64,000 bases of DNA from Liolophura sinensis. Lineage: Eukaryota; Mollusca; Polyplacophora; Chitonida; Chitonidae. The position numbers were made by a program, and so were the translations under genes. Under the pieces are notes generated by a model. It was not told the DNA's origin and ran no database searches. It saw only the letters and a program-made list of their open reading frames with translations. Positions 6,716 through 63,860 of this stretch are shown piece after piece; position 1 is the stretch's first letter; each line of letters begins with the position of its first letter. The stretch lies in the NCBI RefSeq assembly GCF_032854445.1, contig NC_088302.1, positions 53,288,046-53,352,045 of the forward strand. The letters run 5' to 3'.

Positions 6716-7870
6716 GCACAGTGCATGTATCACAAGAAGGCACACAATATGTGTACCACAAGAATCTGCACAGTGCATGTATCACAAGAAGGCACACAAT
6801 ACGTGTACCACAAGAAGGCACACAATACGTGTACCACAAGAATCTGCACAGTGCATGTATCACAAGAAGGCACACAATACGTGTACCACAAGAAGGCACA
6901 CAATACGTGTACCACAAGAAGGCACACAATACGTGTACCACAAGAAGGCACACAATACGTGTATCACAAGAAGGCGCACAATACGTGTATCACAAGAAGG
7001 CGCACAATACGTGTACCACAAGAAGGCGCACAATACGTGTACCACAAGAAGGCGCACAATACGTGTACCACAAGAAGGCACACAATACGTGTACCACAAG
7101 AAGGCACACAATACGTGTACCACAAGAAGATGCACAACACGAGTATTACAAGAAGGTCAATACGTTATTACAAGGTACAAATATGTGCATCCCATGCACG
7201 GAGGTCACAATACGTGTATCAGAAGAAGGCGCACAATGTGTCTTTTGCAAGAAGGTCCTCAACACATGTATCACAAGAAGGTCACAATACTTGTATCACA
7301 AGAAAACGCACAATAAGTGTGTCACAAGAAGGTGTACAACACATGTATCACAAGACGGTCACAATACTTGTATCACAAGAAGGCACACAATACGTGTACC
7401 ACAAGAAGGTCCTCAACACATGTATCACAAGACGGTCACAATACTTGTATCACAAGAAAACGCACAATAAGTGTGTCACAAGAAGGTGTACAACACACGT
7501 ATCACAAGACGGTCACAATACTTGTATCACAAGAAAACGCACAATAAGTGTGTCACAAGAAGGTGTACAACACATGTATCACAAGACGGTCACAACACAT
7601 GTATCACAAGACGGTCACAATACTTGTATCACAAGAAAACGCACAATAAGTGTGTCACAAGAAGGTGTACAACACATGTATCACAAGACGGTCACAATAT
7701 TTGTATCACAAGAAAACGCACATTAAGTGTGTCACAAGAAGGTGTACAACACATGTATTACAAGAAGGTCACAATACTTGTATCACAAGAAAGCGCACAA
7801 TAAGTCTATCACAAGAAGGTCAAGATAGGTATCACAAGAAAGACACGATATCAGAAGGTATCAGAAGGAG
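6716..7870. repeat. 26-bp minisatellite with 77-bp higher-order structure
   Basis: The unit is close to CACAAGAAGGCACACAATAC plus GTGTAC (26 bp). The first half (6716-7140) is nearly homogeneous. From about 7260 the array changes to a composite of 26+25+26 bp subunits (GGTGTACAACACATGTAT, CGGTCACAATACTTGTAT and AAACGCACAATAAGTGTGT variants) repeated about every 77 bp. There are roughly 43 units. The unit has no stop in any plus frame, so the three frames all stay open for hundreds of codons; these are not genes. Confidence 0.93.
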
Positions 7871-13552: not shown

Positions 13553-13607
13553 GTGTACCCAGGCCTTGCCGCACTTTGCACAGAGGACTGACTGATTTTA
13601 AGTCAAA
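13553..13607 (+). other. ZCCHC9: ZCCHC9 5' UTR segment after a likely 3' splice site
   Basis: TTTGTGTTACAG ends at 13552, a good 3' splice site in front of the ATG at 13608. I therefore place a 5' UTR intron here; its donor upstream (perhaps near 12785, AACAAGGTATAT) is uncertain. Confidence 0.4.
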
Positions 13608-28000: not shown

Positions 28001-31000
28001 ATTGTTGCGCTTAATATAGTTATCTCCCCTTCTGACACTGGATGATAGTCTTGGCCTATCTGACTCACCCTCAGGGTTATCATAGGCTGTTGTCCCTTCT
28101 GCTGGATCGGACAGGTCTATTAAGGGAGCCACTGTGTCTCTCTCGTGCATAAAGATTCCAGGCGCCTCCTTGTCAGATGCATAGTTCCCATCTCGGACCT
28201 ATAATTGTAATAAACAAAATGTATTAATACCTTGGTTTTAGTTTTTATTCTGTCTGAAAGCCTTTTTTTGTTTCTCTAAATTGGAAACATGCATCCATTA
28301 TACTTTCCAAGGGAACTCATGACTTTTAATATTGCCTACTCATGAGCAACTGTAAATTGGCATGTGCTGAACAAACTTCCCAACAAAGTCACAATCAAAG
28401 GAAAAGACAACTCTTGAAAACAAAAATAAATAAAAAACATGAAAGTATTCATAAACATAGTTTGTCTGTCTGATGCATCTTGCATCATTTTTTAACTTTC
28501 TTTTATTTTAAGATATGTAAGCTTTTTATTGCACTGCTGACATAGATTGTTCTCCAGGCAGATTTGATTACAGGACATTATTAATGAGTGGGCAGGATGA
28601 AAGGTTAAAGACTCACAGGTAAGTTGGACTTGGGAGCAGAGTACTGTGGGAGGGGTGGGACAGGTGGGGGCTGTGACCGCGGGGACGGGGGCCTGGCCCC
28701 CGGTCGATCATTATAATACTCTGGTTCATCCCCCCAGGCCGACGTCTCGTTGTCAAATAACGGGTTTTCTATTCTGAAATGAGAACAGGTGATGCCTTAC
28801 AAGCTGATTCTGCAGAATCAAGAACTCTGATTTGACAACAGTTGTACATACACAGTGTACAAAAGTAATGACCTAAAACATCTAGTATGCATAGATTTTT
28901 CTCTCACTAATTTCGGAGTAGGCACATTCTAAATGCCCATAAAATTTTATAATTTTAGATATTTAGAGTTTGCACAAGTTCTTAATAGTTCACCTGTACT
29001 TGAGGCACAACCCTGTCAGAAATTTTCTAACTCTGGAATCCGTAGGTCACAGGCTCATATCCTTGTGATGTTCTTGCTGGTTCCGCCATAGTTTGAAGTA
29101 AGATAAGATTGTCAGACATCTGTCGAAGAGAGGTAGTTACACCTCCTCCCCACCCCTACCCCCTCCCGACACTGTCCAGTTTCCTCTATGTTTACACAAA
29201 TGCAATCAGTATGTGCCATTCAGCATACACACTCACCTATCTGGTACTGTTAATGCCCTCGGCTGTTGCTTTAAAAACTCCTTAAACCTTAGCTCAAAGG
29301 CCTGTCCTATAGTGGTAATGACATCCTCTGCCAGCCCTCCCCCACACTCAAACACGTGGCATGCCCGGTGGTTGATCGGGTCTTTAGCTACATAGGAGAC
29401 AAAATCTAATGTTTCCTGATGGAGAAAAACAAAGTCTTCTGTAATTCCTCAAAATTATCAGCAATCATTTCAAACCTTTTTGACTTTGCATAAACAACTG
29501 AAGATAATTACAAACATTCTTCTTCATTTAAGGTGAGTACACATATAAATAATCCGCAAGAAGAGACATCAGAGATGTAATTATGTACATTTTTACATAT
29601 TACTGAATTTCAAGGTGACACAATCCGCTTGATTTTGAATGATTATCATCTCATACGGCCACTTTGAAGTATTTTTGTGAAATCTGATCAATTTTTATCA
29701 GAAAAACTTAAATGTCAGCATCAAAAAAATCATTTTAAATCACTTGTGCAGTTCTGAAAGTTCACATTTATGGGTCAAACTTCAGGTGAAATACAAATTT
29801 CAGGTTTTCCATGACTGTCATGTATGTAAAGTGCACATTTATGGATCAAACTTCAGGTGAAATACAAATTTCAGGTTTTCCATGACTGTCATGTATGTGA
29901 AGTGCACATTTATGGATCAAACTTCAGGTGAAATACAAATTTCAGGTTTTCCATGACTGTCATGTATGTAAAGTGCACATTTATGGATCAAACTTCAGGT
30001 GAAATACAAATTTCAGGTTTTCCATGACTGTCATGTATGTAAAGTGCACATTTATGGATCAAACTTCAGGTGAAATACAAATTTCAGGTTTTCCATGACT
30101 GTCATGTATGTAAAGTGCACATTTATGGATCAAACTTCAGGTGAAATACAAATTTCAGGTTTTCCATGACTGTCATATATACAAAGTGCTCGTTTACAGA
30201 TCAAACTTCAGGTTAAATACAGTTTTTCAGGTTTTCCATGACTGTCATGTATACAAAATAAAGGTCAAAAATAATTACAACAGAAACAAGGAACTAAATG
30301 CCTTACCGCATCTCCTCCTGATGCGAAGGATATTCCTGGCATCTCGTGGTTTGCAATTATCTACAACACATGAAGATCAGAATCACGGATCCTTCTTGGA
30401 TGTATAATAAAACTTATTTTCTGTACCAATTTTACACATTAGTGATCTTAAATGTCACAAAATGCAAAATAAAGGAATCCTTACACTAACTTTCACTGTA
30501 CTAGATACATGCCATTCTGATTTTTTTGAAGCATTCTTTACATAAAGAATTGGAACAAGACCTTGAAAGGACTTTGCGTCTTTAACCATACATGTGCATG
30601 TAATTTAGACTTCACTTATGGCAGAAAAATAAAACTATGAAATCACATCCACACCTACAAAGTACATCTCAAAATTCAATAGTGCAGTTTGACTCTTATG
30701 GAAACCTCATGATGAGGAAGCCAGTACACATGTGCCCATGAAGTTAAGACCTACTGACAAGACTTACCTCCCCTGATTCCATTACCATCAAACTGAGGCT
30801 ATCTGTTGTGATGGTCAGGTTAACATTAGATCCAGCATGTTGCATTTTGGGTAAGTCCCCTAACATTTTGCTGATCTTCTTTTCAATCTGGATAAAAGAA
30901 ACCACAGATATTTATTATTTACTAATGTCACAAATATTTCCACATAGGAAAGAAGAAACAGGCAGCGAAAAAATTATGTATAACATGCCTTTTGTTTTGT

Positions 31001-34000
31001 ACTAAGCTCTCACACAAAACATACATTTCCAAGAAAAAAAGTCAAACCTTTCTCTTTCTATTAGTTGTCTTCAGCCCAGCTGCCTCAGTCACTTTGTTTA
31101 TGGCCTCTCTGTAATCAGAAATTGTAGGTGACAATACAATGCTGGTAAAACTGGTGTGACTGCTTCCATTGCAGTCACTGACAGCTCTGAAGCCCAGCAA
31201 CACAGCCTACAATCACATACATGTACTGTACATTCTGCTTAGAATCATATCCCCCACCTGTGGTAATGTACTGCAGCATGACCCGTGTCAATGTACTGCA
31301 GCATGACCCGTGTCAATGTACTGCAGCATGACCCGTGTCAATGCACTGTAGCATGACCCGTGTCAATGTACTGCAGCATGACCCATGGTAATGTACTGCA
31401 GCATGACCCATGTCAATGTACTGCAGCATGACCCATGGTAATGTACTGCAGCATGACCCGTGTCAATGTATTGCAGCATGACCAGTGTTAATGTATTGCA
31501 GCATGACCCGTGTCAATGCACTGTAGCATGACCCGTGTCAATGTACTGCAGCATGACCCGTGTCAATGTATTGCTGCATAACCCATGTCAATGTACTGCA
31601 GCATAACCCGTGTCAATGTACTGCAGCATAACCCGTGTCAATGTACTGCAGCATGACCCATGGTAATGTACTGTAGCATGACCCGTGTCAATATACTGCA
31701 GCATAACCCATGTCATTGTACTGCAGCATAACCCGTGTCAATACACTGCAGCATAACCCATGTCAATGTATTGTAGCATGACCCGTGTCAATGTACTGCT
31801 GCATAACCCGTGTCAATGTACTGCAGCATAACCCGTGTCAATGTACTGCAGCATGACCCGTGTCAATGTACTGCAGCATAACCCGTGTCAATGTACTGCA
31901 GCATGACCCGTGGTAATGTATTGCAGCATGACCCGTGTCAATGTATTGCAGCATGACCCGTGTTAATGTATTGCAGCATGACCCGTGTCAATGCACTGTA
32001 GCATGACCCGTGTCAATGTACTGCAGCATGACCCGGGTCAATGTACTGCTGCATAACCCATGTCAATGTACTGCAGCATAACCCGTGTCAATGTACTGCA
32101 GCATAACCCGTGTCAATGTACTGCAGCATGACCCATGGTAATGTACTGTAGCATGACCCATGGTAATGTACTGCAGCATAACCCATGTCAATATACTGCA
32201 GCATAACCCATGTCAATTTACTGCAACATAACCCGTGTCAATGTACTGCAGCATAACCCATGTGAATGTACTGCAGCATTACCCATGTCAATGTACTACA
32301 GCATAACCCGTGTCAATGTACTGCAGCATAACCCGTGTCAATGTACTGCAGCATAACCCGTGTCAATGTACTGCAGCATGACCCATGGTAATGTACTGCA
32401 GCATAACCCGTGTCAATATACTGCAGCATAACCCGTGTCAATGTACTGCAGCATAACCTGTGTCAATATACTGCAACATAACCCATGTCAATGTATTGCA
32501 GCATGATCCATGGTAATATACTGCAGCTTGACCCGTGTCAATGTACTGCAGCATGACACGTTTCAAAGTACTGCAGCATAACCCGTGGGGTAATGTATTG
32601 CAGCATGACCCGTGTCAATGTACTGCAGCATGACTCATGGTAATGTACTGCAGCATAACCCGTGTCAATGTACTGCAGCATGACCCATGGTAATGTACTG
32701 TAGCATGACCCATGTCAATGTACTGCAACATGACCCATGTGAATGTACTGCAGCATTACCCATGTCAATGTACTACAGCATAACCCATGTCAATATACTG
32801 CAGCATAATCCATGTCAATATACTGCAGCATAACCCATGTCAATATACTGCAGCATAACCCATGTCAATTTACTGTAGCATAACCCATGTCAATGTCCTG
32901 TAGCATAACCCGTGTCAATATACCGCAGCATAACCTGTGTCAATATACTGCAGCATAACCTGTGTCAATGTATTGTAGCATGACCCGTGTCAATGTACTG
33001 CAGCATAATCCATGTCAATATACTGCAGCATAACCCGTGTCAATATACTGCAACATAACCCGTGTCAATGTACTGTAGCATGACCCGTGTCAATGTACTG
33101 CAGCATGACTCATGGTAATGTACTGCAGCATAACTCGTGTCAATGTACTGCAGCATGACCCATGGTAATGTACTGTAGCATAACTCGTGTCAATGTACTG
33201 CAGCATAACCCATGTCAATGTACTGCAGCATGACCCATGGTAATGTACTGTAGCATAACCCGTGTCAATGTACTGCAGCATGACTCATGGTAATGTACTG
33301 CAGCATAACCCGTGTCAATGTACTGCAGCATGACCCATGGTAATGTACTGCAGCATAACCCATGTCAATATACTGCAGCATAACCCATGTCAATTTACTG
33401 TAGCATAACCCATGTCAATATACTAGAGCATAACCCGTGTCAATATACTGCAGCATAACCTGTGTCAATATACTAGAGCATAACCTGTGTCAATATACTG
33501 CAGCATAACCTATGTCAATGTATTGTAGCATGACCCGTGTCAATGTACTGCAGCATAATCCATGTCAATATACTGCAGCATAACCCGTGTCAATATACTG
33601 CAACATAACCCGTGTCAATGTACTGTAGCATGACCCATGTCAATGTACTGCAGCATGACCCATGGTAATGTACTGCAGCATAACCCGTGTCAATGTACTG
33701 CAGCATGACCCATGGTAATGTACTATAGCATAACCTGTGTCAATGTACTGCAGCATGACCCATGGTAATGTACTGCAGCATAACCCGTGTCAGTGTACTG
33801 CAGCATGACCCATGGTGATGTACTGTAGCATGACCCGTGTCAATGTCCTGCAGCATAATCCATGTCAATATACTGCAGCATGACCCATGTCAATATACTG
33901 CAACATAACCCGTGTCAATGTACTGCAGCATGACCCATGTGAATGTACTGCAGCATTACCCATGTCAATGTACTACAGCATAACCCGTGTCAATATACTG

Positions 34001-36423
34001 CAGCATAACCTGTGTCAATATACTGCAACATAACCCGTGTCAATATACTGCAACATAACCCGTGTCAATGTATTGCAGATGCACATACAGGTATGATGTA
34101 CATGTATGGGTGACATTTTTCAATATGAATTTTACACCACAGTTATAGTTAAAATTTAATTCAATCTGTACATATGACCAGAAATTTAATTCACTGGTAA
34201 ACAAATGCTAGTGGAGGTTAACAGGACTCAGAAACTGACTGATGTCTATTTAAGTTTCAATATTGTGCACTTCACATCATCTCATAAAGTGAAAGCTTAA
34301 ACTTTGTAAACTTCTTCCAAAAGTGCACAAGATACTTTTGAAACATAAATGCTGACAACTACATAAGTAAAGAATTAATACTAGATGGTTAACCTTGAGC
34401 AGTGTGTTCTATCTTGGGATTAGCCATTTTTCTCTGATACAAACAGTGAAAGCATGTTAAGACTATTCTCAATGGGCTTCTAAAAAAATCAGCGTAGTCC
34501 TTGGTATACCTGGCCAGAGCCGTCCTGGTTTCAAAATCAAGGTTCCTCATGGACTCCTTCACCTCCAGACAACCAATGTACTGAGCAAGGAAAATCAGTG
34601 AACATGGTCATACATGATAAAGAACAGCTACATAAATTAACAGTTCATCCATTCGGATAAACTTAAAATTCTATTCTATCACCTGAAACTGACAAAAAAC
34701 TTGTTCACTTGTAGAACACCTCTTCTCTTTCAATAATTTAATCTCTTTTAAAGTTTATTTATTTATTATTTATTATTATTTACTTCATTCAATTTAAAAC
34801 CAAACCAAACTTTAATTTCTCTCTTACATACCAGCACTCAGTTTTATGGGTGGAGGAAATTGGGAGTGCTGGGAGTGAAATTAGGACTGGCAAGTAACTG
34901 ATCAACTTTCTCACCTGTGATATACATTCCCCTGTCCATAGCTAGATCCAAGTGTATGCCTGCAGGTAAAGTAAGTGTATGCCTGCAGAGAAAGTAAGTG
35001 TATGCCTGCAGGTAAAGTAAGTGTATGCCTGCAGAGAAAGTAAGTGTATGCCTGCAGGTAAAGTAAGTGTATGCCTGCAGAGAAAGTAAGTGTATGCCTG
35101 CAGAGAAAGTAAGTGTACGCCTGCAGGTAAAGTCAATGTGTGCCTGCAGGTAAAGTAAGTGTACGCCTGCAGGTAAAGTAAGTGTATGCCTGCAGGTGAA
35201 GTAAGTGTACACCTGCAGGTAAAGTAAGTGTACGCCTGCAGGTAAAGTAAGTGTATGCCTGCAGGTGAAGTAAGTGTACGCCTGCAGGTAAAGTAAGTGT
35301 ATGCCTGCAGGTGAAGTAAGTGTACGCCTGCAGGTAAAGTCAATGTGTGCCTGCAGGTAAAGTAAGTGTATGCCTACAGGTAAAGTAAGTGTATACCTGC
35401 AGGTAAAGTAAGTGTATGCCTGCTGGTAAAATAAGTGTATACCTGCAGGTGATGTAAGTGTACGCCTGCAGGTAAAGTAAGTGTATGACTGCAGCTAATG
35501 TAAGTGTATGCCTGCAAGTTTATGCCTGCAGGTAAAGTAAGTGTATGCCTGCAGGTAAAGCAAATATATGACTGCAGGTGAAGTAAGCGTATGCCTGCAG
35601 GTAAAGTAAGTGTACGCCTGCAGGTAAAGCAAATATATGACTGCAGGTGATGTAAGTGTACGCCTGCTGGTAAAGTAAGTGTACGCCTGCAGGTAAAGTA
35701 AGTGTATGCCTGCAGCTAAAGTAACTGTACGAAAAGTAAGTGTACGCCTGCTGGTAAAGTAAGTGTACGTCTGCAGGTAAGGTAAGTGTATGCCTGCAGG
35801 TAAAGTAAGTATACACCTGCAGGTGAAGTAAGGGTACGCCTACAGGTAAAGTAAGTGTATGCCTGCAGGTAAAGTAAGTGTATGCTTGCTGATAAAGTAA
35901 GTGTACGCCGGCAGGTAAAGTAAGTGTATGACTGCAGCTAAAGTAAGTGTATGCCTGCAAGTGTATGCCTGCAGGTAAAGTAAGTGTATGCCTGCAGGTA
36001 AAACAAATATATGACTGCAGGTGAAGTAAGTGTATGCCTGCAGGTAAAGTAAGTGTACGCCTGCAGGTAAAGTAAGTGTGTGCCTGCAGGTAAAGTAAGT
36101 GTACGCCTGCAGGTAAAGTAAGTGTGTGCCTGCAGGTAAAGTAAGTGTAAGCCTGCAGGTAAAGCAAATGTATGACTGCAGGTAAAGTAAGTGTATGCCT
36201 GCAGGTAAAGCTGTCAGACTACCTGAGGTGGACCCACTACTATCAGGTGTGTGAGACTTACCCGTACTCCATAGCAAACGCCCGCATCTGGGAGAAGCTG
36301 TTCATCTGGGTGAATCCACCCCCGATCAGGTTTATGAATAAAGCTGCCCGTTTTTGTCCAATCAGGGCCTGCCCCTGCTCCCTTTGTCTTGTGCTTTTTG
36401 TACTTCTCCTTCACCGCTGCCAT
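25026..36423 (-). CDS. SHC1: SHC-transforming adaptor protein (SHC1-like), twelve coding exons
   Basis: Coding exons (plus coordinates, transcribed right to left): 36423-36262, 34580-34510, 31108-31048, 30887-30768, 30360-30307, 29415-29237, 28773-28617, 28198-28069, 27575-27465, 26838-26657, 26037-25906, 25157-25026. All phases join (1491 nt, 496 aa; human p52 is about 473). Residues 25-206 form the PTB domain ([74 protein letters not shown]). The linker has EYYNDRPG (Y235/Y236, the SHC YYND site), a proline-rich run, TAYDNPE (Y307, a pYxN GRB2-type site) and FDMEPF (344-351), matching the vertebrate adaptin-binding FDMKPF. Residues 400-494 are the SH2 domain: WFHG, then FLVRES with phosphotyrosine-binding R423. 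SHC binds activated receptors and recruits GRB2/SOS to Ras at the membrane. The ATG lies 1 nt inside its exon (TTTCAG/AATG), so an upstream non-coding exon is expected; a p66-type N-terminus was not found. The exon 3 donor (AAG/gtttga) is weak. Confidence 0.95.
27112..27155 (-). mobile_element. Truncated SINE 3' end with target-site duplication
   Basis: Minus-strand GACGTTAAACCCCAAGCACTCACTCACTC equals the 3' end of the SINE at 60532-60895. Direct repeats CCCAAATTAGAG at 27100-27111 and 27156-27167 flank it, supporting insertion of a heavily 5'-truncated copy. It lies in an SHC intron. Confidence 0.7.
29765..30250. repeat. 71-bp minisatellite in an SHC intron (about 7 copies)
   Basis: CAAACTTCAGGTGAA starts at 29776, 29847 and 29918, spaced 71 bp. 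Copies are nearly identical until the last two, which diverge. The array ends about 55 bp before the PTB exon 30307-30360. Each copy has TTCAGGTGAAA and TTTCAGGTTTT. Confidence 0.93.
31259..34078. repeat. 25-bp minisatellite in an SHC intron (about 112 copies)
   Basis: Unit near AATGTACTGCAGCATAACCC plus GTGTC, spaced 25 bp, over 2.8 kb. The main variants are ATAACCC/ATGACCC, CGTGTC/CATGTC/CATGGT and TACTGCAG/TATTGCAG. It fills most of the intron between SHC exons 34510-34580 and 31048-31108. In the gene's direction each unit reads TTATGCTGCAGTACATTGAC, which resembles the 3' splice junction of the adjacent exon (TTGCTCAG/TACATTGG). Confidence 0.96.
34951..36210. repeat. 23-bp minisatellite in SHC intron after the first coding exon (about 55 copies)
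   Basis: Plus-strand unit GCCTGCAGGTAAAGTAAGTG plus TAT (23 bp). In SHC orientation it reads as a pyrimidine-rich stretch ending in CAG (ACTTACTTTACCTGCAG). The array starts 51 bp downstream of the first coding exon's donor at 36261. Common variants are GTAAAG/GTGAAG/GAGAAAG and GTATG/GTACG. Open frames on the minus strand (for example [10 protein letters not shown] repeats) are repeat artefacts. Confidence 0.95.
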
Positions 36424-36580
36424 TCTGAAAGCACAGAGTATCATAACATTAAAAATGCATCATAAATTAATATATCACACAAACACAGGATTGTAGTTAT
36501 AACACTATGTCGGTTTATAAGCATATAGTTGGCTGAAAACTTTTACCAAAGGAACCAACCCAATCTACTGAATCCTGCAT

Positions 36581-38104: not shown

Positions 38105-39960
38105 ATTCACTATACATAGGGACCACTGGCCACATGGAACACCCTATACCTAGGGTGGTGTGATATAGCGTTACTCTAACAGGGGCCACTGCTCACATGG
38201 AACAACCTACCCCCAAGGTTGTGTGACATGGGGTTACTCTAATAGGGACCACTGGCCACATGGAACACCCTATACCTAGGGTGGTGTGACATAGCGTTAC
38301 TCTAACAGGGGCCACTGCTCACATGGAACAACCTACCCCCAAGGTTGTGTGACATGGGGTTACTCTAATAGGGGCCACTGCCCACATGGATCACCCTACA
38401 CCCACGGTAGTGTGACATGGAGTTACTCTAATAGAGACCACTGGCCACATGGAAGACCTTACACCAATGGTGGTGTGACATGGAGTTACTCTAATAGAGA
38501 CCAATGTCCTCATGAAACACCCAACATCTAAGGTGGTGTGACATGGGGCTACTCTAATTGAGACCACTGGCCAAATAGAAGACCTTACACACAAGGTGGT
38601 GTGACATTACTCTAATAGGAACCAATGTCCTCATGAAACACCCGATATCTAAGGTGGTGTGACATGGGGTTACTCTAATAGGGACCAATGTCCACATGGA
38701 ACATCTTACACCAAAGGTGGTGTGACATGGGGTTACTCTAATAGGATCACTGGCCACATGGAACACCTGACACCCAAGGTGGTGTGACATGGGGTTACTC
38801 TAATAGGGACCATTGGCTATATGGAACACCTGACACCCAAGGTGGTGTGACATGGGGTTACTCTAATAGGGATCACTGGCCACATGGAACACCTGACACC
38901 CAAGGTGGTGTGACATGGGGTTACTCTAATAGGGACCATTGGCTATATGGAACACCTGACACTCAAGGTGGTGTGACATGGGGTTACTCTAATAGGGATC
39001 ACTGGCCACATGGAACACCGACACCCAAGGTGCTGTGACATGGGGTTACTCTAACAGGGATCATTGGCCACATGGAACACCCGACACCCAAGGTGCTGTG
39101 ACATGGGGTTACTCTAATTGGGACCATTGGCCACATGGAACACCATACACCCAAAGTGGTGTGACATGGGGTTACTCTAATAGGGACTACTGGCCACATG
39201 GAACACCTACACCCAAGGTGGCGTGGCATGGGGTTACTCTAATAGGGACCACTGGCCACATGGAACACCCTACACACAACATGGTATGACATGGGGTTAC
39301 TCTAATAGGGACCACTGGCCACATGGAACACCCTACACACAACATGGTATGACATGGGGTTACTCTAATAGGGATCACTGGCCACATGGAACACCGACAC
39401 CCAAGGTGGTGTGACATGGGGTTACTCTAACAGGGATCATTGGCCACATGGAACACCCGACACCCAAGGTGCTGTGACATGGGGTTACTCTAATTGGGAC
39501 CATTGGCCACATGGAACACCATACACCCAAAGTGGTGTGACATGGGGTTACTCTAATAGGGACTACTGGCCACATGGAACACCTACACCCAAGGTGGCGT
39601 GGCATGGGGTTACTCTAATAGGGACGATTGGCTATATGGAACACCTGACACCCAAGGTGGTGTGACATGGGGTTACTCTAATAGGGACCACTGGCCACAT
39701 GGAACACCCTACACACAACATGGTATGACATGGGGTTACTCTAATAGGGACCACTGGCCACATGGAACACCCTACACACAACATGGTATGACATGGGGTT
39801 ACTCTAATAGGGACCACTGGCCACATGGAACACCCTACACACAACATGGTATGACATGGGGTTACTCTAATAGGGACCACTGGCCACATGGAACACCCTA
39901 CACACAAGGTGGTATCACATGTACTTACTCTAAAAGGAACCACTGCCAACGTGGGACAGC
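38105..39960. repeat. 63-bp minisatellite (about 29 copies) with higher-order duplications
   Basis: The unit contains GTGTGACATGGGGTTACTCT, AATAGGGACCACTGG, CCACATGGAACACC and ACACCCAAGGTG; adjacent units are 63 bp apart (GACATGG at 38786 and 38849). Two long-period duplications are visible: a 126-bp block at 38170/38296 and a 376-bp block at 39035/39411 whose copies are almost identical. The array ends in four near-identical units. It lies in the predicted SHC 5' intron. Confidence 0.94.
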
Positions 39961-39964
39961 CTAG

Positions 39965-52999: not shown

Positions 53000-55900
53000 A
53001 TGGCCCATAACAAAATTTATTACTCAGACAAATATTGTGATGATTACTATGAATATAGGTGAGTATGACATATCATCTAATATTAGCTGTTAAAAAGTTA
53101 TCTTCAGTCTAACCACGTAATGTTCTATCTTGTGGTTTGATCCCGCGCGATAGCAAGCAAGTTTTGACTTGTCTACCACTTTATTGATGTCTAGCTATAA
53201 AGTGCCTATATTGTTTTTAATTTTAGCTGACAATTAGGACTTGTAATTAAGGAAAGTTTATTTGATTGTATCGATTTCTGGCAAAGGTTTAAACAAAATA
53301 GACAAAATTTGATCATGCTATCTGAGCTGTTGACGTTCTCACCCATTAAGATTTGACCATACAGTGGTTTTTAATTCTACTCTGCTGTTAGTTTCGGGCC
53401 CGTGTTCAAATGTGCATATTAAATGGAGATGAACCTTCAAACAACATCAAGTGTCTCATGCAAAATACCAGCTGATACGTTTACCTCCCCGAGCAATATG
53501 ATTTCATTTTGTTTTTGCCTACAAATAGGGCCTATGAGAGATACACGAATAGCCCTGGAGGACAAGCTCTAGGGCCTCGCGTAGTAGCTGGGTCCCGTTT
53601 AGCCTGTAAGGCTGAATAATAAGATTTTGGAAAACAATCAGTTACCAATGTACCTCACCCATCCTGCAGCTCCTTTATAATGGTTAGGGTCCCAGGGCAC
53701 CAGACTTAAAATCCATAGATGTTGATCATCCTAAAAGTAAATATCCATCCATAAATAACCATCTTCTACACGGCGCGCATGTGCGGCCAGGCAGCTGGAT
53801 AGGACTAGTTTGCAAGAATTGATTCACGGTGTGCTAAATTTTGCTACAGCTTCGTATACAGAGAACCCTGCAGTTTAAAAATGGATATTTGATACGACAC
53901 TCCCCATGTGTAAAGTGCGCTAATCTCCACAGTTTTCTCCCAAATTCACACTTATCACATAATTACAAATTTACCATAATAAAACAATCAATCTGTTGCG
54001 AAGTGCATGTACTAAAATCATTATGATTAAAACTGAGGAAATCACAGACTGTTGGTGGTAGGAACATAGACTAACTGCTCAGTGAAGGGTGAGCTTGTTT
54101 ATTACATTGAACTGTCGGTATAATCCCAGGGGTTAATAGAAGTCGTCTGGAAGTCTCGATTGAATAAAAATAACTGGATATTTATTCAGTTTGAGGTTTT
54201 TTGAAGAAATATTCAAAATTTTACTCAGCATGAACATATCCAAAGTTCTGAGGAAATCTTCATGACACTCTGTATTGATTAGATTTTTGGAAGGGGAAGG
54301 GCGTATGAAATCAAACATGACACATACTAAGCTTCTTCGGTCTCTACCAAATCTGTCTTCACAAATAATTTGACCTACTTCGGCTTCAGATGGTTCTGTT
54401 TTTGACAATAGCATAGGTCAAGTGACTGCATGTGAGCGCACACCTTTCGACTGGTTTCCTCCCCCTGGTGTCAGATGGTGCCAATATTTTCAGCTCCTTT
54501 GAAGGCAAGCAGGCAGTTTGCCTCCAGGTTTTGTTTTCTGGAGTCTAAAGTTTGATAAAAAGCTTATAGCAGCAAAATTAAAACTTTTTTTGCTATGGAC
54601 ATTTACCAACAACATCGGATCGCTAGACTGAACATGGAGAAATGTGCCACACAGGACTTCTGCCAATCAGAATGTTAAGATCCAGCATTATTCGTCGTGG
54701 AAAAAGTGACAATTCATTGATGCATAAACTAGCAGTGTAGTTTATCTCCCTTAACATGTAGCCTCGTTATTTGATTAGTGTTTTATGCCATACTCAAGAA
54801 TATTTCACTTATATGACAACGGCCAGCATTATGGTGAGAGGAAACCAGGCAGAGCCCAGGAGGAAGCCCACAACCATCTGCAGGTTGCTGACAGACCTTC
54901 CCTCGTAAGTCTTGAGAGGAAGCCAGCATGAGCTGGACTTGCACTCACAGCGACCGCATTGGTGAGAGGCTTCTGGGTCATTACGCTGCGCTAACCGACT
55001 GAGCCACGGAGGTCCCCCTCGTTACTTAAAGATCATTATTGTTAATACTCCATGTTGTAAATCACTGTGTGGGTCTCCTAATTTTCTCATTACTGGTAGC
55101 TGATTATTGCGGTCAATTTCATGTGATCAGTACCCTGTCAAATCAGACTTCGCTTTGAACTGCTTTTGTTGATTGAAATCTTCATTTGTTTTGACAGGTA
55201 AGTATAATGCCTCAAGAGATTTTAGATAATGCGCAGAACATTCGTCTGGATACAGTATTCAGATTTGTTTCTTGTATATATGTTGCATAATTTTTGATTT
55301 TCTCAAAAGTTTTTTTGTTAAGTGTGCCGATTATCAGTTTACAGCATCAACAAGGAGGCCAGCTTGAGTCCATATGTAGGCAGTGATAATTATAGCAATC
55401 TGTGAAGTATTCGTACAAAAATATTCAATTTTTGTCTCTCAAATGGACAGTCAAAACTCAAAAAAAAAAAAAAAAAATTATTTGTAAGAAGAAAAGTGCC
55501 CAAAAAGTGGCAGTGGGTATGTGGAAAAATGACTTCTATGAACCCCTGAATTCAAGACCACCCCTGATGCTATCCCGCAGCGCCCACTCAGTAACAACCA
55601 CGATCAACACAGTGAATCCTGGGATACACTAGTCCAAGGTCATTTACTGTAGGGTCTATTTTTATAGTTGATGAGCAATATGGAAGTGGATAAAATACAA
55701 CAAGCAATCATTTGTGTGACAAATTATGCATCTTTGTGAAGACCTAGGCTCAGTTTGAGGTCATTTTTATTTTGAGCTCTTGAAGTGAGGTGAATGTATG
55801 AACATTTTGACCTAATGCGTATGTGGCTGTTTGATCAGCTATGGCAAACATTTCTTGAATTCATACGGCTTGCCATTTACCTCTGGCACCCGCACTGACA

Positions 55901-58900
55901 GCCATCACACAATTCTTGAGTATGGCACTAGTTAGAAAAAACAAGCAAATAATATTTGTTGGAATTACCGGTACACATAAAAAAATACTTGCTCTTTTGC
56001 TTGCAGACACGTTATGCTACCAAAGGAAATAGCCAAATTGGTTCCAAAAAAGACATTAATGTCAGAGGCCGAATGGCGGAGGATAGGAGTACAACAGAGT
56101 CAGGGCTGGGTGCATTATATGATACATGAACCAGGTACGTTGTAGAGAAGGGTGCCTGGTTTATAAGGCTGGGTGCATTATATGATACATGAACCAGGTA
56201 CGTTGTAGAGAAGGGCGCCTGGTCTGTAAGGCTGGGTGCATTATATGATATATGAACCAGGTACGTTGTAGAGAAGGGTGCCAGGTCTATATGGCTGGGT
56301 GCATTATATGATACATGAACCAGGTACGTTGTAGAGAAGGGTGCATGGTCTGTAAGGATTGGTGTATTATATGATACATGAACCAGGTACGTTGTAGAGA
56401 AGGGTGTCTGGTCTATAAGGCTGGGTGCATTATATGGTACATGAACCAGGTACGTTGTAGAGAAGGGTGCCTGGTCTATAAGGCTGGGTGTATTATATGA
56501 TACATGAACCAGGAACGTTGTAGAGAAGGGTGCCTGGTCTATAAGGCTGGGTGCATTATATGGTACATGAACCAGGTACATTGTAGAGAAGGATGCCTGG
56601 TCTATATGGCTGGGTGCATTATATGATACATGAACCAGGTACGTTGTAGAGAAGGGTGCATGGTCTGTAAGGATTGGTGTATTATATGATACATGAACCA
56701 GGTACGTTGTAGAGAAGGGTGCCTGGTCTATAAGGCTGGGTGCATTATATGATACATGAACCAGGTACGTTGTAGAGAAGGGTGCCTGGTCTATAAGGCT
56801 GGGTGTATTATATGATACATGAACCAGGAACGTTGTAGAGAAGGATGCCTGGTCTATAAGGCTGGGTGCATTATATGGTACATGAACCAGGTACATTGTA
56901 GAGAAGGATGCCTGGTCTATAAGGCTGGGTGCATTATATGATACATGAACCAGGTACCTTGTAGAGAAGGGCGCCTGGTCTGTAAGGCTGGGTGCATTAT
57001 ATGATACATGAACCAGGTACGTTGTAGAGAAGGGTGCCAGGTCTATATGGCTGGGTGCATTATATGATACATGAACCAGGTACGTTGTAGAGAAGGGTGC
57101 CTGGTCTATAAGGCTGGGTGTATTATATGATACATGGGCCAGGTACGTTGTAGAGAAGGGTGCCTGGTCTATAAGGCTGGGTGCATTATATGATACATGG
57201 GCCAGGTAAGTTGTAGAGAAGAGTGCATGGTCTGTAAGGCTGGGTGCATTATATGATACATGGGCCAGGTACGTTGTAGAGAAGAGTGCATGGTCTGTAA
57301 GGCTGGGTGCATTATATGATACATGGGCCAGGTAAGTTGTAGAGAAGAGTGCATGGTCTGTAAGGCTGGGTGCATTATATGATACATGGGCCAGGTAAGT
57401 TGTAGAGAAGGGTGCCTGGTCTGTAAGGCTGGGTGTATTATATGATACATGAACCAGGTACGTTGTAGAGAAGGGTGCCAGGTCTATATGGCTGGGTGCA
57501 TTATATGATACATGAACCAGGTACGTTGTAGAGAAGGGTGCCTGGTCTGTAAGGATTGGTGTATTATATGATACATGAACCAGGTACGTTGTAGAGAAGG
57601 GTGCATGGTCTGTAAGGATTGGTGTATTATATGATACATGAACCAGGAACGTTGTAGAGAAGGGTGCCTGGTCTATAAGGCTGGGTGCATTATATGATAC
57701 ATGGGCCAGGTAAGTTGTAGAGAAGAGTGCATGGTCTATAAGGCTGGGTGTATTATATGATACATGAACCAGGTACGTTGTAGAGAAGGGTGCCAGGTCT
57801 ATATGGCTGGGTGCATTATATGATACATGAACCAGGTACGTTGTAGAGAAGGGTGCCTGGTCTATAAGGCTGGGTGTATTATATGATACATGGGCCAGGT
57901 ACGTTGTAGAGAAGGGTGCCTGGTCTATAAGGCTGGGTGCATTATATGATACATGGGCCAGGTAAGTTGTAGAGAAGAGTGCATGGTCTGTAAGGCTGGG
58001 TGCATTATATGATACATGGGCCAGGTAAGTTGTAGAGAAGGGTGCCTGGTCTATAAGGCTGGGTGTATTATATGATACATGGGCCAGGTACGTTGTAGAG
58101 AAGAGTGCATGGTCTGTAAGGCTGGGTGTATTATATGATACATGGGCCAGGTAAGTTGTAGAGAAGAGTGCCTGGTCTGTAAGGCTGGGTGCATTATATG
58201 ATACATGAACCAGGTACGTTGTAGAGAAGGGTGCCAGGTCTATAAGGCTGGGTGTATTATATGATACATGGGCCAGGTAAGTTGTAGAGAAGGGTGCCTG
58301 GTCTATAAGGCTGGGTGTATTATATGATACATGAACCAGGTAAGTTGTAGAGAAGAGTGCATGGTCTGTAAGGATTGGTGTATTATATGATACATGAACC
58401 AGGAACGTTGTAGAGAAGGGTGCCTGATCTATAAGGCTGGGTGCATTATATGGTACATGAACCAGGTAAGTTGTAGAGAAGAGTGCATGGTCTGTAAGGA
58501 TTGGTGTATTATATGGTACATGGGCCAGGTAAGTTGTAGAGAAAGGGACATGGTCTATAAGGCTGGGTGCATTATATGATACATGGGCCAGGTAAGTTGT
58601 AGAGAAGGGTGCCTGGTCTATAAGGCTGGGTGCATTATATGATACATGGGCCAGGTACGTTGTAGAGAAGGGTGTCTGGTCTATAAGGCTGGGTGCATTA
58701 TATGATACATGAACCAGGTAAGTTGTAGAGAAGAGTGCATGGTCTGTAAGGATTGGTGTATTACTATAAAGTACTTATTATTCGCTGGAATTTATTTTCG
58801 CAGATTTTCTCCAAAAATATGTTTGCAGGATTTACTTTTCGCATGTTTAAGAGAATATTGAAAAAAATCTTCAAATTGTCAAAGATATAATATTGCCGAA

Positions 58901-61900
58901 ATTATTCAAGCACGTCAGACAGGTATCATCTTGGGTAGCTTTAATCCTCCTTTATTTTCTGTGGTGGCACTAATCCTCGTGGTCTGGATCAGAGAGTGAG
59001 ACAATGGGGGATGGATAATCAGTACGTAACAAGATTACTTTCGCAACTACTGTGAGCAGTACTCAGACAGGTGTCACTCCTTTTTGAACCATTCATGAGT
59101 ACTTTTAAACACCTGGCAAAGTGACCTGTCACCTTTGAGCAGTTCAACGGAAAACATGAATTCACCATTATCGGCTCCAGTCACTCACTATTTATCAAGC
59201 AACATGGTAAGTTTTGCATTGTTTTCAGTTTTAATCGTCCTCTGTGGCAGGTCAGAAACCGCAAACATTGCTGTAGCACTCAAATGGCCATTGTGTTGTT
59301 GCACACACTTACACTTACCAGTTGGTTAGAAGCTCATTCTGTAGGGCTGGGTGTATTATACAGGGTTTGCACCGATCAGGGAAAATCTGGAATATCAGGA
59401 AGAACAGAATTGCCTGTTCCAGACACAGGAATGTCAGGGAATTTGAAATTTTAATGGTTTTGTCCTCGAATATCAGGGAAAATTGATGTTGGGTCTGCTG
59501 TAGCAAGTTTCATATGTTAGACGGCTCTAAATTCCTTGGTGTTGGCTGTTATAAAATATCAAATTCAAACATACTGGTACTCAAAATTTTACTGGTACTC
59601 AAAAGTTGTTTCAGAATGCCAATGTACAACACTTGCAGGTAACAGTATAGATTTGAATAGGGTTTCCCAAGGTTACCTAAGGGGGATAACTCCTCACTAT
59701 ACTTGCATGCCATCATTGCCATGTGTTTATATCCGTCAGTTGATCAGCATCAAACCGCGAAGTCATTCCAACTCGCAAAAGCTAGGGACATTGACTCAGT
59801 GTTTCAGAAATGATAGGAAGGAAAACTAAGCCTTTACCTAACAAACTGTAACTGTGAATATTGAAGGTTGACCTTGTTCTGTCGTAGACAGCAGTGACCA
59901 CAACAACATTAGAGGTGGAGATTTGGTGGTGTCTGAAATCAATCCAGTCCCACTGGCCCTACAACTCTTTGGCTGATACAGGTACATACTTGTGGCCAGT
60001 TGTTTCTGTTAGTCACTTTTGTTATCATTGTTAATCTCTCATTTGGGCCAACACGATCATAACACTCGTAAAAGGTCTGGCTCGAGTCTCACCTAAGACT
60101 TTAAAAGAGGAAGTTGTGGCTTCCTCGCTTGGCGTTCAGCATAGAGGGGATAGTGCAACGACTGGTTGACCCGTATCATCAAAAATGCTCGGGTGGGACC
60201 TTCGGTAAGTCATCTCAGTGAAGCAGCACTAGATAAAAGAGCAGCGGAAATCCGTCCTGCAACAAGGCGGTACATTACATACACCCTAAGGATTCCTTCA
60301 TCATCATATGACTGAAAAATTGTTGAGCACGACATTAAACCGCAATCACTCACTCGTAAAAGGTTTACTGTTTTTTTTTTTTTGCTTTTTAACTATGGAG
60401 ATTTGTCTTACCTTTAAAGTTAATATGATAAAAAATAAACTAGTCAGTATTTTCCAGCTATAAAGTGTGCTTTATAGGCCTATGTGTATTACCATATATT
60501 TTTGATATTTAATAGTAAATTATCGATTCAAGGACCAGCCCGGATAGCACAGTTGGTAGAGCGTCCGCTTCGGGACCGGTAGATCCAGGATCAATCCTTG
60601 ATCGAGTCACACCTAAGACTTTAAAAGAGGAAGTTGTAACTTCCTCGCTTGGCGTTCAGCAGGAAGGGGATAGTGCAACGACTGGTTGACCCGTATCAGT
60701 ATAATGGCTCGGGCGGGGCTGCTTACTTGCCTTCGGTAAGTCGTCTCAGTGAAGCAGCACTAAATAAAAGAGCGGTGGAAATCCGTCCTGCAACAAAGAG
60801 GCACATTGCACGTACATGCACCCTAATGATTCCTTCGTCGTCATATGACTGGAAAATTGTTGAGTACAACGTTAAACCCCAAGCACTCACTCACTCGATT
60901 CAATTTTTTGGTTTTTACATTAGTTTTATGTTCCCATATGGTTTCATTGCCTTGTAATTCCAGTGTAGGGAGGGAAACTGTGCATACATCACTACATTTG
61001 GTGACATGCAGCGTTTCGGGGGCCTCAGTGGCTCAGTCGGTTAGCGCGCTAGCGTTGCGTAATGACCCAGGAGCCTCCCACCAATGCAGTCCCTGTGAGT
61101 TCAAGTCCAGCTCATGCTGGCTTCCTCTCCGGTCGTAAGTGGGAAGGTCTGCCAACAACCTGTGGATGGTCGTGGTTTTCCCCCGGCCTGTGCCCGGTTT
61201 CCTCCCACCATAATGCTGGCCGCCGTCGTATAAGTGAAATATTCTTGAGTACGGCATAAAACACCAATCAAATAAATAAATAAATAAATGCCATACAGCA
61301 TTTCAAGAAACATATCACACCACATAATAAGATCATGAAAGTAGTTTTGTTTGATGAAAGCAAAACTATGAAGGCACAAAACAAATAGATGGATGTTCAT
61401 ATTCGTTTTTGGAAAGGCGACATTGTCACCGCTAGATACTTTCTGCATTCTCTGAATTCATGGGATGTGCTACAGCAGAAGAGACCTACATGCATAAGTG
61501 CATGTAACTTATTTTTCCTCTTGTTTGTAGCTGGGATGGATTACTGTGGATTCCCTCCTGTTCGTCTTCAGTGATGAGAATATTAAACAAGTGTTCATGA
61601 ATCCTAGTATATTGTTAGTATTAGTACCACCATGGGGTCTTAGTGACGGTAAGGCTCAGCAGTTTATGATGTTTGTGTGGCCACTTGTCCAGTATAGTGT
61701 TCATTTAAGTGGACTTAAAGTCTGCCACTATATATATTTAGAAAAAATGATATAGGACAGTTATAACAGAAAAATATGTAAAAAAAATTCTGTAAAGTTT
61801 TTAAAGTTGAGAAGATGAAGTTCAGCATGGGGATATGGCACTGACGGACAATTCACTCCAAGCAGCCAAGTTGTAGAAGCCTTTATGAACTTGGCCAGTC

Positions 61901-63860
61901 ACTAGAGCTGAATATGTCATGTGATAATTGGCTGTCACGTCAAAATGTGGTTTCTTACAGTGGATAGACAGATATCAATGCAATAAATTGGATTTTGCGG
62001 TTAGTTTAAGTGTTAAACTTATGCATTTAGGAGCATGGAACTGAGAACGGCTGTGTATACATTAGGCATGATACTGCAGTAACTTGCAGTAAGCTAGCAA
62101 GAAAACCACCTGGGGAGAGTCATTGCTTGAAGACAAATATTTGACTTTGCTTTATTTTTCTTTAGCAAAGTTAGATTTATTACCAGAATATATTTTCCCA
62201 AAATCTGAATGAAAGAGTTTGTTATCAGTGAGAAGGCCCTGCTATGTGGGGTAAAGTCCATGAAGTCCAGCTGGGGGAAATGCTTACACCCATGCAGAAC
62301 GAGGACGAACGGGACCCCTGAAACATTACGCTTGTGTACACCAATAAGCATGTTTAGCATGGCTATTTAAATATAGCAGCTTTGGTAGAACAGACAGGAG
62401 CCATGGGCATATAATTTGTTGAGTATAACATTTAACACTAATCAGTGATACGACTGAAATAATGCTGAAAGCATGGAGAAGCAGTACACAACAATCCAAA
62501 CTTGCTTGTACTTGCACAAACATTCCCACCAAATACCTATTTGAAAGTTTGAATTTAGCCGTTGAGCATCTTCGAATTTTAAAATCTCATTTCTGTGTGA
62601 ACCCTGATTATATGATACATGAGCCAGGTAAGTTGTGGAGATGGGTACATTGTATATAGAGCTGAACCAGGTAAGCTGTAGAGACGGCTACATTGTGTAT
62701 AGAGCTGAACCAGGTAAGCTGTAGAGAAGGGTACAAGATCGGGCTTGGTGTATTATGCAGCGAGAGCTTTCCAGAGAAAAGAACTTTCAAACAAGTATAT
62801 TCGCATTCTGCTGGGCTTGAATTTGGAAAGTGCAAAACAGGCCCATGTCAGTACTGTAATGAGACTGGAATAAGAGGTCATGCAGGATTTCTTCAGTTTT
62901 GTGTCTGGAAGACAGACCCATTCCCTCGGAATAGCTACTTTAAATTCTCCCTCAGGCACACAAAACCCTGGAATAAAGAAAAGTCTTTTCAGTGACCAGT
63001 GGAATATTTGAATCCTTTCACACATTAGTTAAAGCACAAATTAATCTGCACCCTCGTCAAACACTTACTATATCTCCTACATCACCGACAAATTGCGTTT
63101 CGGCATCGTCAAATTTTCTGTTTTAGCATCTATCTGTCAGAGACCGATGACCTAATTGTACGCGGTGATATTCGCATGGAGCACTAATTGCGAAAGCGCT
63201 CCAGCGTAATAGCTAGAATGCATAGGCTTATAGTAGCACGAAAATCTGGTCTACTCGACTACTCTCCGTACGTCAGTAGTTTTGGGTAAGTGCTTTCTAA
63301 AAGTGACGAGAAATCAGCGTTTGATGCGCCCTGGCAGGTCGGATCACGGGTGAGAATGCGTATCGCGCGAAAACAGTCTCTACAAAATGTCATGTATGCG
63401 CCGTGAAGTAAGATGAAAATGTAATCCACGCGACTTTGGCCCACCACACGTAAGTTTTGGCGCATATTTTTGTTCTGCCGACTTGTCCGTCGTAAGGCTC
63501 TGATACAACACAGGAATTTTACTATATACATTGTGAATTACACCTTATCCAAAGACTCTCTCACTCTTCCGACCCCTACCACTGACCCTCAGCCTCAAAC
63601 GGACTCAAAATTTATTTTCTGGCAGAAACCCTGTCATGTCTAGTTGTCAAGTATTCTTGCCAAAACATGTAGCTATGTATTTAGCTATTTTTTAAAACTT
63701 TTTAAGGTTTTCCTGTACATGTGTTAACTTAAAATTCATTTAATGTGCTCAAGCAGTGAACCTAGTAAATGGTAAATTTTACTCTTTTTTTTTTTTTTTT
63801 TCAGAACAACACATCCTGCTATTTAGGCGACCAGTCACAACTCCCCCACCGGAATATTAG
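53000..63860 (+). CDS. CKS1: Cyclin-dependent kinases regulatory subunit (CKS1/CKS2 family), three exons
   Basis: Exons: 53000-53058, 56007-56134, 63805-63860; phases join (243 nt, 80 aa; human CKS1B is 79). The start [12 protein letters not shown] matches the family N-terminus. Exon 2 supplies [17 protein letters not shown] and [16 protein letters not shown]; exon 3 supplies HILLFRRP and a new tail ending PPPEY instead of the basic vertebrate tail. All five phosphate-pocket residues are present: K11, R20, S51, W54, R71. CKS proteins bind CDKs and dock phosphorylated substrates (for example for SCF-Skp2) in nucleus and cytoplasm. Odd: the hinge reads HEPEQH, so the second hinge proline is Gln64. 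Intron 2 is 7.7 kb and begins with a minisatellite made from the exon 2/intron 2 boundary. A 19-nt T-run precedes the exon 3 acceptor. The gene is head to head with SHC. Confidence 0.96.
53059..54761. other. CKS1 intron 1, first part
   Basis: No exon, array or recognised transposon in this part. Confidence 0.45.
54770..55016 (-). mobile_element. tRNA-derived SINE, MetaSINE-like, in CKS1 intron 1
   Basis: Minus-strand order: CCGTGGCTCAGTCGGTTAGCGC (A-box region), GTGAGTGCAAGTCCAGC (B-box region), GGCTTCCTCTCAAGAC, CTGCCTGGTTTCC, then AAATATTCTTGAGTATGGC and a short tail. The 8-bp direct repeat CCTCGTTA at 54762-54769 and 55017-55024 is a likely target-site duplication. Confidence 0.82.
56104..58765 (+). 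repeat. 63-bp minisatellite built from the CKS1 exon 2 / intron 2 junction (about 42 copies)
   Basis: The first copy is genuine: 56104-56134 is the last 31 bp of coding exon 2 (GGCTGGGTGCATTATATGAT plus ACATGAACCAG) and 56135-56166 is intron. The next copies start at 56167 and 56230, exactly 63 bp apart, and so on to about 58765. Every copy repeats the codons for [10 protein letters not shown] followed by a donor-like word: GTACGT in the proximal half, and GTAAGT in at least 13 distal copies (near 57208, 57332, 57394, 57708, 57960, 58022, 58150, 58276, 58340, 58466, 58529, 58591, 58718). A few copies have the dead variant GAACGT. In the exon's frame each copy then meets TAG five codons after the proline (GTACGTTGTAG). 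The long minus-strand frame (294 codons) is an artefact. Confidence 0.97.
59338..59361 (+). repeat. Isolated relic of the CKS1 junction repeat
   Basis: TGTAGGGCTGGGTGTATTATACAGG matches the start of the 63-bp unit (TGTAAGGCTGGGTGTATTATA), about 0.6 kb beyond the main array. Confidence 0.65.
59362..60059. other. CKS1 intron 2, between array relic and SINEs
   Basis: No exon or known transposon recognised. Confidence 0.4.
60060..60358 (+). mobile_element. 5'-truncated SINE, second tRNA-type family
   Basis: About 80-85% similar by eye to the body of the element at 60532-60895: TCACCTAAGACTTTAAAAGA, GGCGTTCAGCA, TAGTGCAACGACTGGTTGAC, CCTTCGGTAAGTC, GTTGAGCACGACATTAAACC and an ACTCACTCG end. The tRNA-like head is mostly missing. 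Confidence 0.75.
60532..60895 (+). mobile_element. tRNA-derived SINE, second family, full length
   Basis: The head AGCCCGGATAGCACAGTTGG followed by TAGAGCGTCCGCTTCGGGAC has tRNA form with an A-box-like segment. The body matches the copy at 60060-60358, and the end is GTTGAGTACAACGTTAAACC plus (ACTC)n. Direct repeats CGATTCAA at 60524-60531 and 60896-60903 look like a target-site duplication. A 102-codon open frame inside is part of the SINE. Confidence 0.82.
61018..61291 (+). mobile_element. tRNA-derived SINE, MetaSINE-like, best copy
   Basis: Head GGGGCCTCAGTGGCTCAGTC then GGTTAGCGCGC (A box), GTGAGTTCAAGTCCAGC (B box), CTTCCTCTCCGGTCGTAAGT, CCCGGTTTCCTCCCACCATA, ATGCTGGCCGCCGTCGTATA, core AGTGAAATATTCTTGAGTAC, and an (AAAT)n tail. 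Imperfect 13-bp repeats CATGCAGCGTTTC (61005) and CATACAGCATTTC (61292) are a likely aged target duplication. Confidence 0.85.
61292..62604. other. CKS1 intron 2, featureless part
   Basis: No exon, array or recognised transposon. Confidence 0.4.
62605..62760 (+). repeat. Degenerate distal relic of the CKS1 junction repeat (3-4 partial copies)
   Basis: TTATATGATACATGAGCCAG/gtaagttgt at 62608, then two shorter copies with GAGCTGAACCAG/gtaagctgtagaga near 62662 and 62704, then GGGCTTGGTGTATTATGCAG near 62740. The relics sit 3.9 kb beyond the main array and 1.0 kb before CKS1 exon 3. Confidence 0.85.
62761..63804. other. CKS1 intron 2, last kilobase
   Basis: No exon recognised. The 63100-63530 part is visibly richer in CpG than its surroundings and may be a separate inserted sequence. 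The T-run at 63785-63801 is the polypyrimidine tract for exon 3. Confidence 0.4.

Follow-up and report, generated by a model that had tools for sequence, protein, structure and literature searches.

When the 5' splice site that closes a coding exon is followed by a long series of its own copies, which of them does the spliceosome use, and what becomes of the protein if a later one is chosen? The CKS1 gene of the chiton Liolophura sinensis raises this question, and we addressed it by computational analysis of a 64,000-nucleotide stretch of the genome (the window), in which an initial annotation had described a minisatellite seeded on the end of exon 2.

The CKS1 gene and the array at its exon 2 boundary

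A tblastn search with human CKS1 as the query matched three pieces of the window, which correspond to the following exons:

53000..53058, plus strand: CKS1 exon 1, coding part (tblastn with human CKS1 and spliced frame; donor TAG/GTGAGT)
56007..56134, plus strand: CKS1 exon 2, 128 nt (acceptor ...CTTGCAG/ACACG; donor CAG/GTACGT)
63805..63860, plus strand: CKS1 exon 3, coding part (tblastn and spliced frame; preceded by a T-rich acceptor)

Joining the three coding exons at canonical sites produced an intact CKS1 of 80 residues that matched the Pfam CKS family (PF01111, E 1.9e-38), had human CKS1 as its top PDB match (E 1.7e-38), and was identical over 80/80 residues to one NCBI protein, "cyclin-dependent kinases regulatory subunit 1-like [Liolophura sinensis]". 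These matches bear out the assignment of the gene to CKS1 in the initial annotation, and its placement of the end of exon 2 is upheld by the spliced frame, which across the donor at 56134 gives the full 80-residue protein. Splicing at the first donor predicts precisely this NCBI protein, an agreement at the level of annotation since the record is of a protein and not of RNA reads.

The array begins within exon 2 and lies inside the 7.67-kb intron 2:

56104..58763, plus strand: minisatellite array, 42 complete units of 63 bp and a 14-bp remainder (TRF and gapless cutting)
56104..56166, plus strand: unit 1, in the founder position (exon part identical to the array consensus at 31/31 positions)

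TRF reported 56104-58763 (period 63, 42.2 copies, 92% matches, 0% indels), and gapless cutting every 63 bases left 42 full units and a 14-bp remainder at 58750-58763. The proposed count of about 41 copies beyond the first agrees with both; the array end had been put at 58765 and is in fact 58763. Both results describe one assembled haplotype, in which the length polymorphism put forward in the initial annotation would not be visible. Unit 1 has the proposed anatomy, with 31 bp from the end of exon 2 (56104-56134) followed by 32 bp from the start of intron 2 (56135-56166), and it differs from the array consensus at a single intronic position (position 58, T for C). A scan of lags 1 to 24 had its lowest mean difference at lag 12 (3.70, against 4.59 to 5.96 at the other lags); no lag dominates, and we dropped the idea of a clean higher-order period. 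A 920-codon antisense open reading frame over the array (56012-58774, minus strand) was likewise dismissed, as shuffling a 63-bp unit left one or more of the six frames open in 1834 of 2000 trials.

As tandem repeats are often misassembled, and one lancelet array of similar design was reported to be aberrantly assembled in a genome draft (PMC3087553), the array or its length might be an artefact of assembly. We consider this highly improbable: the units are mostly non-identical (34 of the 42 are distinct, with a mean pairwise difference of 5.2 of 63 positions), relic units also occur outside the array (see below), and the assembly, published under the name L. japonica, is described as built from 14x HiFi reads with a mean length of 8,347 bp (PMC11068029), which exceeds the 2,660 bp of the array. 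The species was later renamed L. sinensis (PMC12441733).

Other tandem arrays in the window

After merging TRF rows by hand we counted 20 tandem arrays in the window with a unit of at least 10 bp, totalling 15,911 bp or 24.9% of the 64 kb, and because arrays are this dense we would expect some of them to land on exon ends by chance. Among the larger ones are 112 copies of a 25-bp unit at 31265-34078, about 42 copies of a 26-bp unit at 6726-7842, and a further array with a 63-bp unit at 38116-39963 (29.5 copies), the sequence of which is different from that of the CKS1 array.

Ten reading frames of the window were compared with Pfam at a threshold of E 0.001; the frame at 25870-26100 matched SH2, and the other nine were without a match. 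We take the minus-strand stretch 25870-36459 to hold exons of an SHC-like adaptor gene, including a PTB-like exon with an end near 36262 by eye, and note that the exon at 13602-13943, which has no Pfam match, resembles the start of ZCCHC9. A 23-bp array at 34950-36210 starts about 50 bp after the donor of the exon ending near 36262 and does not span it, and about 220 bp separate the end of the 13602-13943 exon from the start of a 24-bp array. At three exon ends picked by eye, near 36262 and 26660 (both presumably SHC-like) and near 13943 (presumably ZCCHC9-like), no boundary was spanned by an array in the TRF output.

Donor sites within the array

The first donor of the series is the one that yields the database protein:

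56132..56140, plus strand: authentic 5' splice site CAG/GTACGT (within a predicted 13-bp RNA hairpin that pairs unit positions 23-35 with 49-61)

At the donor position of the 42 units we counted CAG/GTACGT in 22 (the authentic site included), CAG/GTAAGT in 13, GTACAT in two, GTACCT in one and no GT in four, which read GA there. The description of the array as a series of near-identical donors therefore holds for the 38 of 42 units that keep the GT and fails for the other four; in addition, 13 donors are stronger and three weaker than the authentic site. The 13 GTAAGT units have full complementarity to U1 and thus a better match than authentic CAG/GTACGT, with a duplex energy of -11.8 against -7.6 kcal/mol. 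Counting later units alone, 37/41 have a GT and 34/41 equal or exceed the authentic site in score.

When we scanned the window with a splice-site matrix, 35 plus-strand sites within the 2.66-kb array (counting the authentic donor itself) equalled or outscored the authentic donor, against 18 in the other 61 kb, three of which fall in the relic units; on the minus strand there were 15 in the 64 kb, none within the array. Such a concentration could suit a U1 decoy, in which the array would bind many U1 particles and, its donors unused, shield the 7.67-kb intron from premature cleavage and polyadenylation or delay splicing. This we regard as very unlikely: the donors are no more conserved than the other unit positions, with 3/9 donor sites variable against 19/54 others (Fisher p 1.0). 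The same comparison gives no sign of selection on the array donors, and we rejected the idea that selection keeps them. Variable sites made up 7/31 of the exon part and 15/32 of the intron part (p 0.064), and we claim no difference between the two.

Predicted consequences of using a later donor

56143..56145, plus strand: in-frame TAG, encountered by every transcript that uses a later array donor (TAG at this position in 42/42 units)

Read-through past the first donor gives a frame ending ...HEPGTL-stop and a predicted protein of 65 residues, so the spliced frame agrees with the proposal that any extension brings in a TAG after HEPGTL. Since any extension meets this stop, the sequence rules out a longer CKS1 isoform. 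The 65-residue form was absent among the best 120 of 662 protein matches, the shortest of which had 76 residues. In a transcript extended by n units the stop would be 63n-11 nt upstream of the new junction, a distance of 52, 115 and 178 nt for n = 1, 2 and 3. Under the general distance rule for nonsense-mediated decay (NMD), which is not known to hold in chitons, decay of later-donor transcripts is plausible from n = 2 upward and borderline at n = 1. In a transcript, use of the first donor would correspond to a junction sequence running from unique exon 2 (upstream of 56104) through ...GAACCAG into AACAACACATCC, and use of a later donor to a TATAAGGCTGGG-type unit joint ahead of GAACCAG/AACAACAC.

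Predicted hairpin over the first donor

The donor of unit 1 lies within the 13-bp stem of a predicted RNA fold (MFE -22.0 kcal/mol, z -3.5) that none of 200 shuffles equalled in stability, and with the folded segment moved by 6 nt one of 200 did. Three other array units were no more stable than their shuffles (z -0.11 to 0.22), nor was the relic stretch (z -0.53), and the full stem occurs in four of the 42 units (1, 17, 29 and 41). In tau exon 10 a 5' splice site is described as lying within a natural stem-loop, destabilisation of which favours U1 binding (PMC7404189). We do not put forward the CKS1 hairpin as proof of function, as comparably stable folds were found in 21 of 1434 segments of 63 nt drawn at random outside the array, the stem was spotted post hoc, and by the whole 9-mer the authentic donor does not rank among the least open.

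In the context of the array at 37 C, the predicted probability that AGGT is unpaired was 0.010 at the authentic donor against a mean of 0.23 for the 13 GTAAGT copies, all 13 of which had higher values; by this measure the authentic donor ranked 28th of 42 in openness (32nd at 20 C). By the whole 9-mer it ranked 9th at 37 C, where 7/13 of the GTAAGT copies and 1/21 of the other GTACGT copies were more open than it, and 15th at 20 C, where 11/13 and 2/21 were. From these ranks, stronger donors are predicted to tend to be more open, and the authentic donor is predicted not to be unusually closed among donors of its kind.

These predictions bear on an alternative in which the array would act as a rheostat: a weak, hairpin-buried first donor would sometimes lose to a later one, the transcript would gain an extension of 63n nt with its stop, and the length of the allele would tune CKS1. 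The 34 later copies that equal or outscore the authentic site, 13 of them perfect U1 matches, are consistent with this, as are the stable stem over the authentic donor, its low chance of being unpaired at AGGT, and the spacing of the stop from the new junctions. We nevertheless consider it unlikely. The hairpin result depends on the measure, array donors are no more conserved than the array background, and U1 may bind co-transcriptionally, before the hairpin forms; reports on comparable arrays, discussed below, fall on both sides.

Origin of the array and relic units in intron 2

Judged by its coding content, exon 2 is the source of the array, because its 31 bp encode a conserved 10-residue CKS1 peptide that is lost in most copies: outside the exon 11/41 copies keep it and the rest have replacements such as HEP to HGP. 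Protein constraint on the copies was rejected on this count and because two of the seven variable exon-part sites are third codon positions (unit positions 3 and 27, by eye). Divergence from the exon copy increases along the array (Spearman 0.44, p 0.004, treating as independent units that are not).

With the main array masked, a blastn search of the window with the unit led us to relic units further along intron 2:

59338..59360, plus strand: relic array unit (TCTGTAGGGCTGGGTGTATTATA), cut at ATTATA (blastn E 0.032, 87% over 23 bp)
59361..62606, strand not assigned: 3,246-bp insertion splitting the relic unit (ends CAGGGTTTGCAC / GTGTGAACCCTG, flanked by a 6-bp ATTATA repeat)
62607..62735, plus strand: relics after the insertion, one unit of the 63-bp type and 43-bp derivatives (blastn E 5e-12, 83% over 58 bp; TRF 43 bp x 2.7)

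The relic at 59338-59360 is weak by itself and is backed up by the matching half that starts at 62607. ATTATA closes the first relic and opens the second, a 6-bp target duplication, and the ends of the insert, CAGGGTTTGCAC and GTGTGAACCCTG, are inverted with 10/12 positions matching by eye; we take these CAGGG ends to be hAT-like. Within the insert there seem to be nested SINE-like copies around 60080-60330 and 60540-60870, also by eye. The simplest reading is that a DNA transposon inserted itself into one unit of an older array of greater length. The array probably already held several units when the insert arrived, because the relics carry exon-part changes found in array copies (by eye), and a multi-unit array seems to predate the 3,246-bp insert. 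As to whether the ancestral donor read GTAAG or GTACG, all three relic donors are CAG/GTAAG (9-mers from 62625, 62668 and 62711), yet the relics share exon-part changes with the array. The relic units in intron 2, one of them split by the transposon-like insert, and the predicted hairpin over the authentic donor are new in this analysis.

Comparison with known systems

The initial annotation knew of no described minisatellite seeded on a coding exon/donor boundary with such a copy number; that the kind itself is undescribed is contradicted by two systems, the lancelet "mirages" and human IFI6. In a mirage an exon-intron boundary is duplicated in tandem in the manner of a minisatellite (PMC3087553, PMC3902484); such arrays are reported in genes for Adh, troponin C, globin and PGBD5 (PMC3902484). 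The CKS1 array has all three structural features of mirages that could be checked: its unit spans the authentic exon-intron boundary, it forms a tandem minisatellite-like array adjoining that boundary (42 units that start within exon 2), and many but not all copies keep the AG/GT, with the GT retained in 38/42. As described, the amphioxus mirages of Adh3, the globins BflGb6 and BflGb9, troponin C and PGBD5 likewise have splice signals in many copies, and in BflGb9 it is also the 3' boundary of exon 2 that is duplicated. Their units are given as 10-160 bp and the copy number of BflGb6 as varying between haplotypes, with 6 and 3 copies in two of these against 42 in CKS1. Unlike them, the CKS1 array is in a mollusc and in a cell-cycle gene, all its copies have an in-frame stop after the donor, and a hairpin is predicted over the first donor. 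Mirages are reported to be unstable in length, in Adh3 even somatically, and the published data suggest that regular splicing is undisturbed (PMC3087553, PMC3902484), which counts against a rheostat and lowers the odds of array length governing CKS1 output.

The IFI6 gene (6-16, G1P3) raises those odds. Its repeat consists of 26 copies of 12 bp that start close to where exon 2 ends. Turri et al. reportedly described in 1995 that the tandem repeats of this gene supply successive splice donors. Like the CKS1 array, in which units supply potential donors after the authentic one, the IFI6 repeats are described as giving a donor series between exons 2 and 3, and two downstream repeats are reported to serve as donors, giving protein isoforms (PMC4526556). 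This speaks for a rheostat and is also a point against dominance of the first donor; the IFI6 extension leads to protein isoforms, whereas the predicted CKS1 extension leads to a stop after HEPGTL.

Two further systems are partly alike. Human variable internal tandem repeats are described as mostly minisatellites that can alter splicing at exon-intron boundaries, with 27 intron modifications attributed to tandem repeats at such boundaries; these repeats average four units of 30 bp, occur in recently duplicated genes and reach 39 copies in one family (PMC2812944), compared to 42 units of 63 bp in CKS1. Tandem copies of an AGGT-containing segment are also reported to supply splice sites elsewhere (PMC4974935). 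Unlike in that system there is no new intron at CKS1, where the duplicated segment spans an existing donor, the three coding exons cover the whole 80-residue protein and the array is inside intron 2. Our searches of the openly licensed literature, which were not aimed at molluscs and mirages jointly, brought up no mollusc mirage among the papers listed. Three candidates were set aside: the intronic minisatellites near alternative exons in C. elegans (PMC4039745) and the intronic repeats of an earthworm metallothionein gene (PMC12783039) are, as described, of another kind, and the length-variable 27-bp minisatellite of an abalone TSSK1-like gene is inside intron 3 and is described without mention of a copied exon boundary (PMC6905558).

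Interpretation and significance

Overall, the structure is real and striking and its kind is already known. We think it probable that the CKS1 array is a tolerated mirage in which the first donor is dominant. A 63-bp segment over the exon 2/intron 2 boundary would have been duplicated in tandem, and the units would then have expanded and been partly homogenised via slippage or unequal exchange. The spliceosome would mostly pair exon 2 with the first donor, the one nearest the exon 2 acceptor (giving the 128-nt exon), and the entire array would be removed with the intron; use of a later donor would give a stop-containing mRNA that is degraded or yields the 65-residue fragment, which lacks what exon 3 encodes. 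On this view the array is tolerated and not selected. This reading is favoured because the database protein is the first-donor product and because neither selection on the donors nor protein constraint on the copies was found, and we also count in its favour the relics and the insertion, the absence of a 65-residue form among the protein matches listed, and the richness of the window in minisatellites. Against dominance of the first donor we count, besides IFI6, the 13/42 units with full U1 complementarity, all predicted to be more open at AGGT, and the nature of the database protein as an annotation, which NMD-prone forms might escape.

If instead the array were a rheostat, inherited array length would set the amount of a CDK-regulating protein. 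With the tolerated mirage as the preferred reading, the locus presents a mirage-type array of 42 copies in a gene expected to be important whenever a cell divides, in a mollusc. Published L. sinensis HiFi reads (SRX20411988) and RNA data from digestive gland, foot, gill, gonad and heart (SAMN35319765 to SAMN35319769) could reveal if copies in the array serve as donors and if its length is variable, and the CKS1 array offers a natural test of the fidelity of the spliceosome to the first among near-identical donors, some of them stronger.
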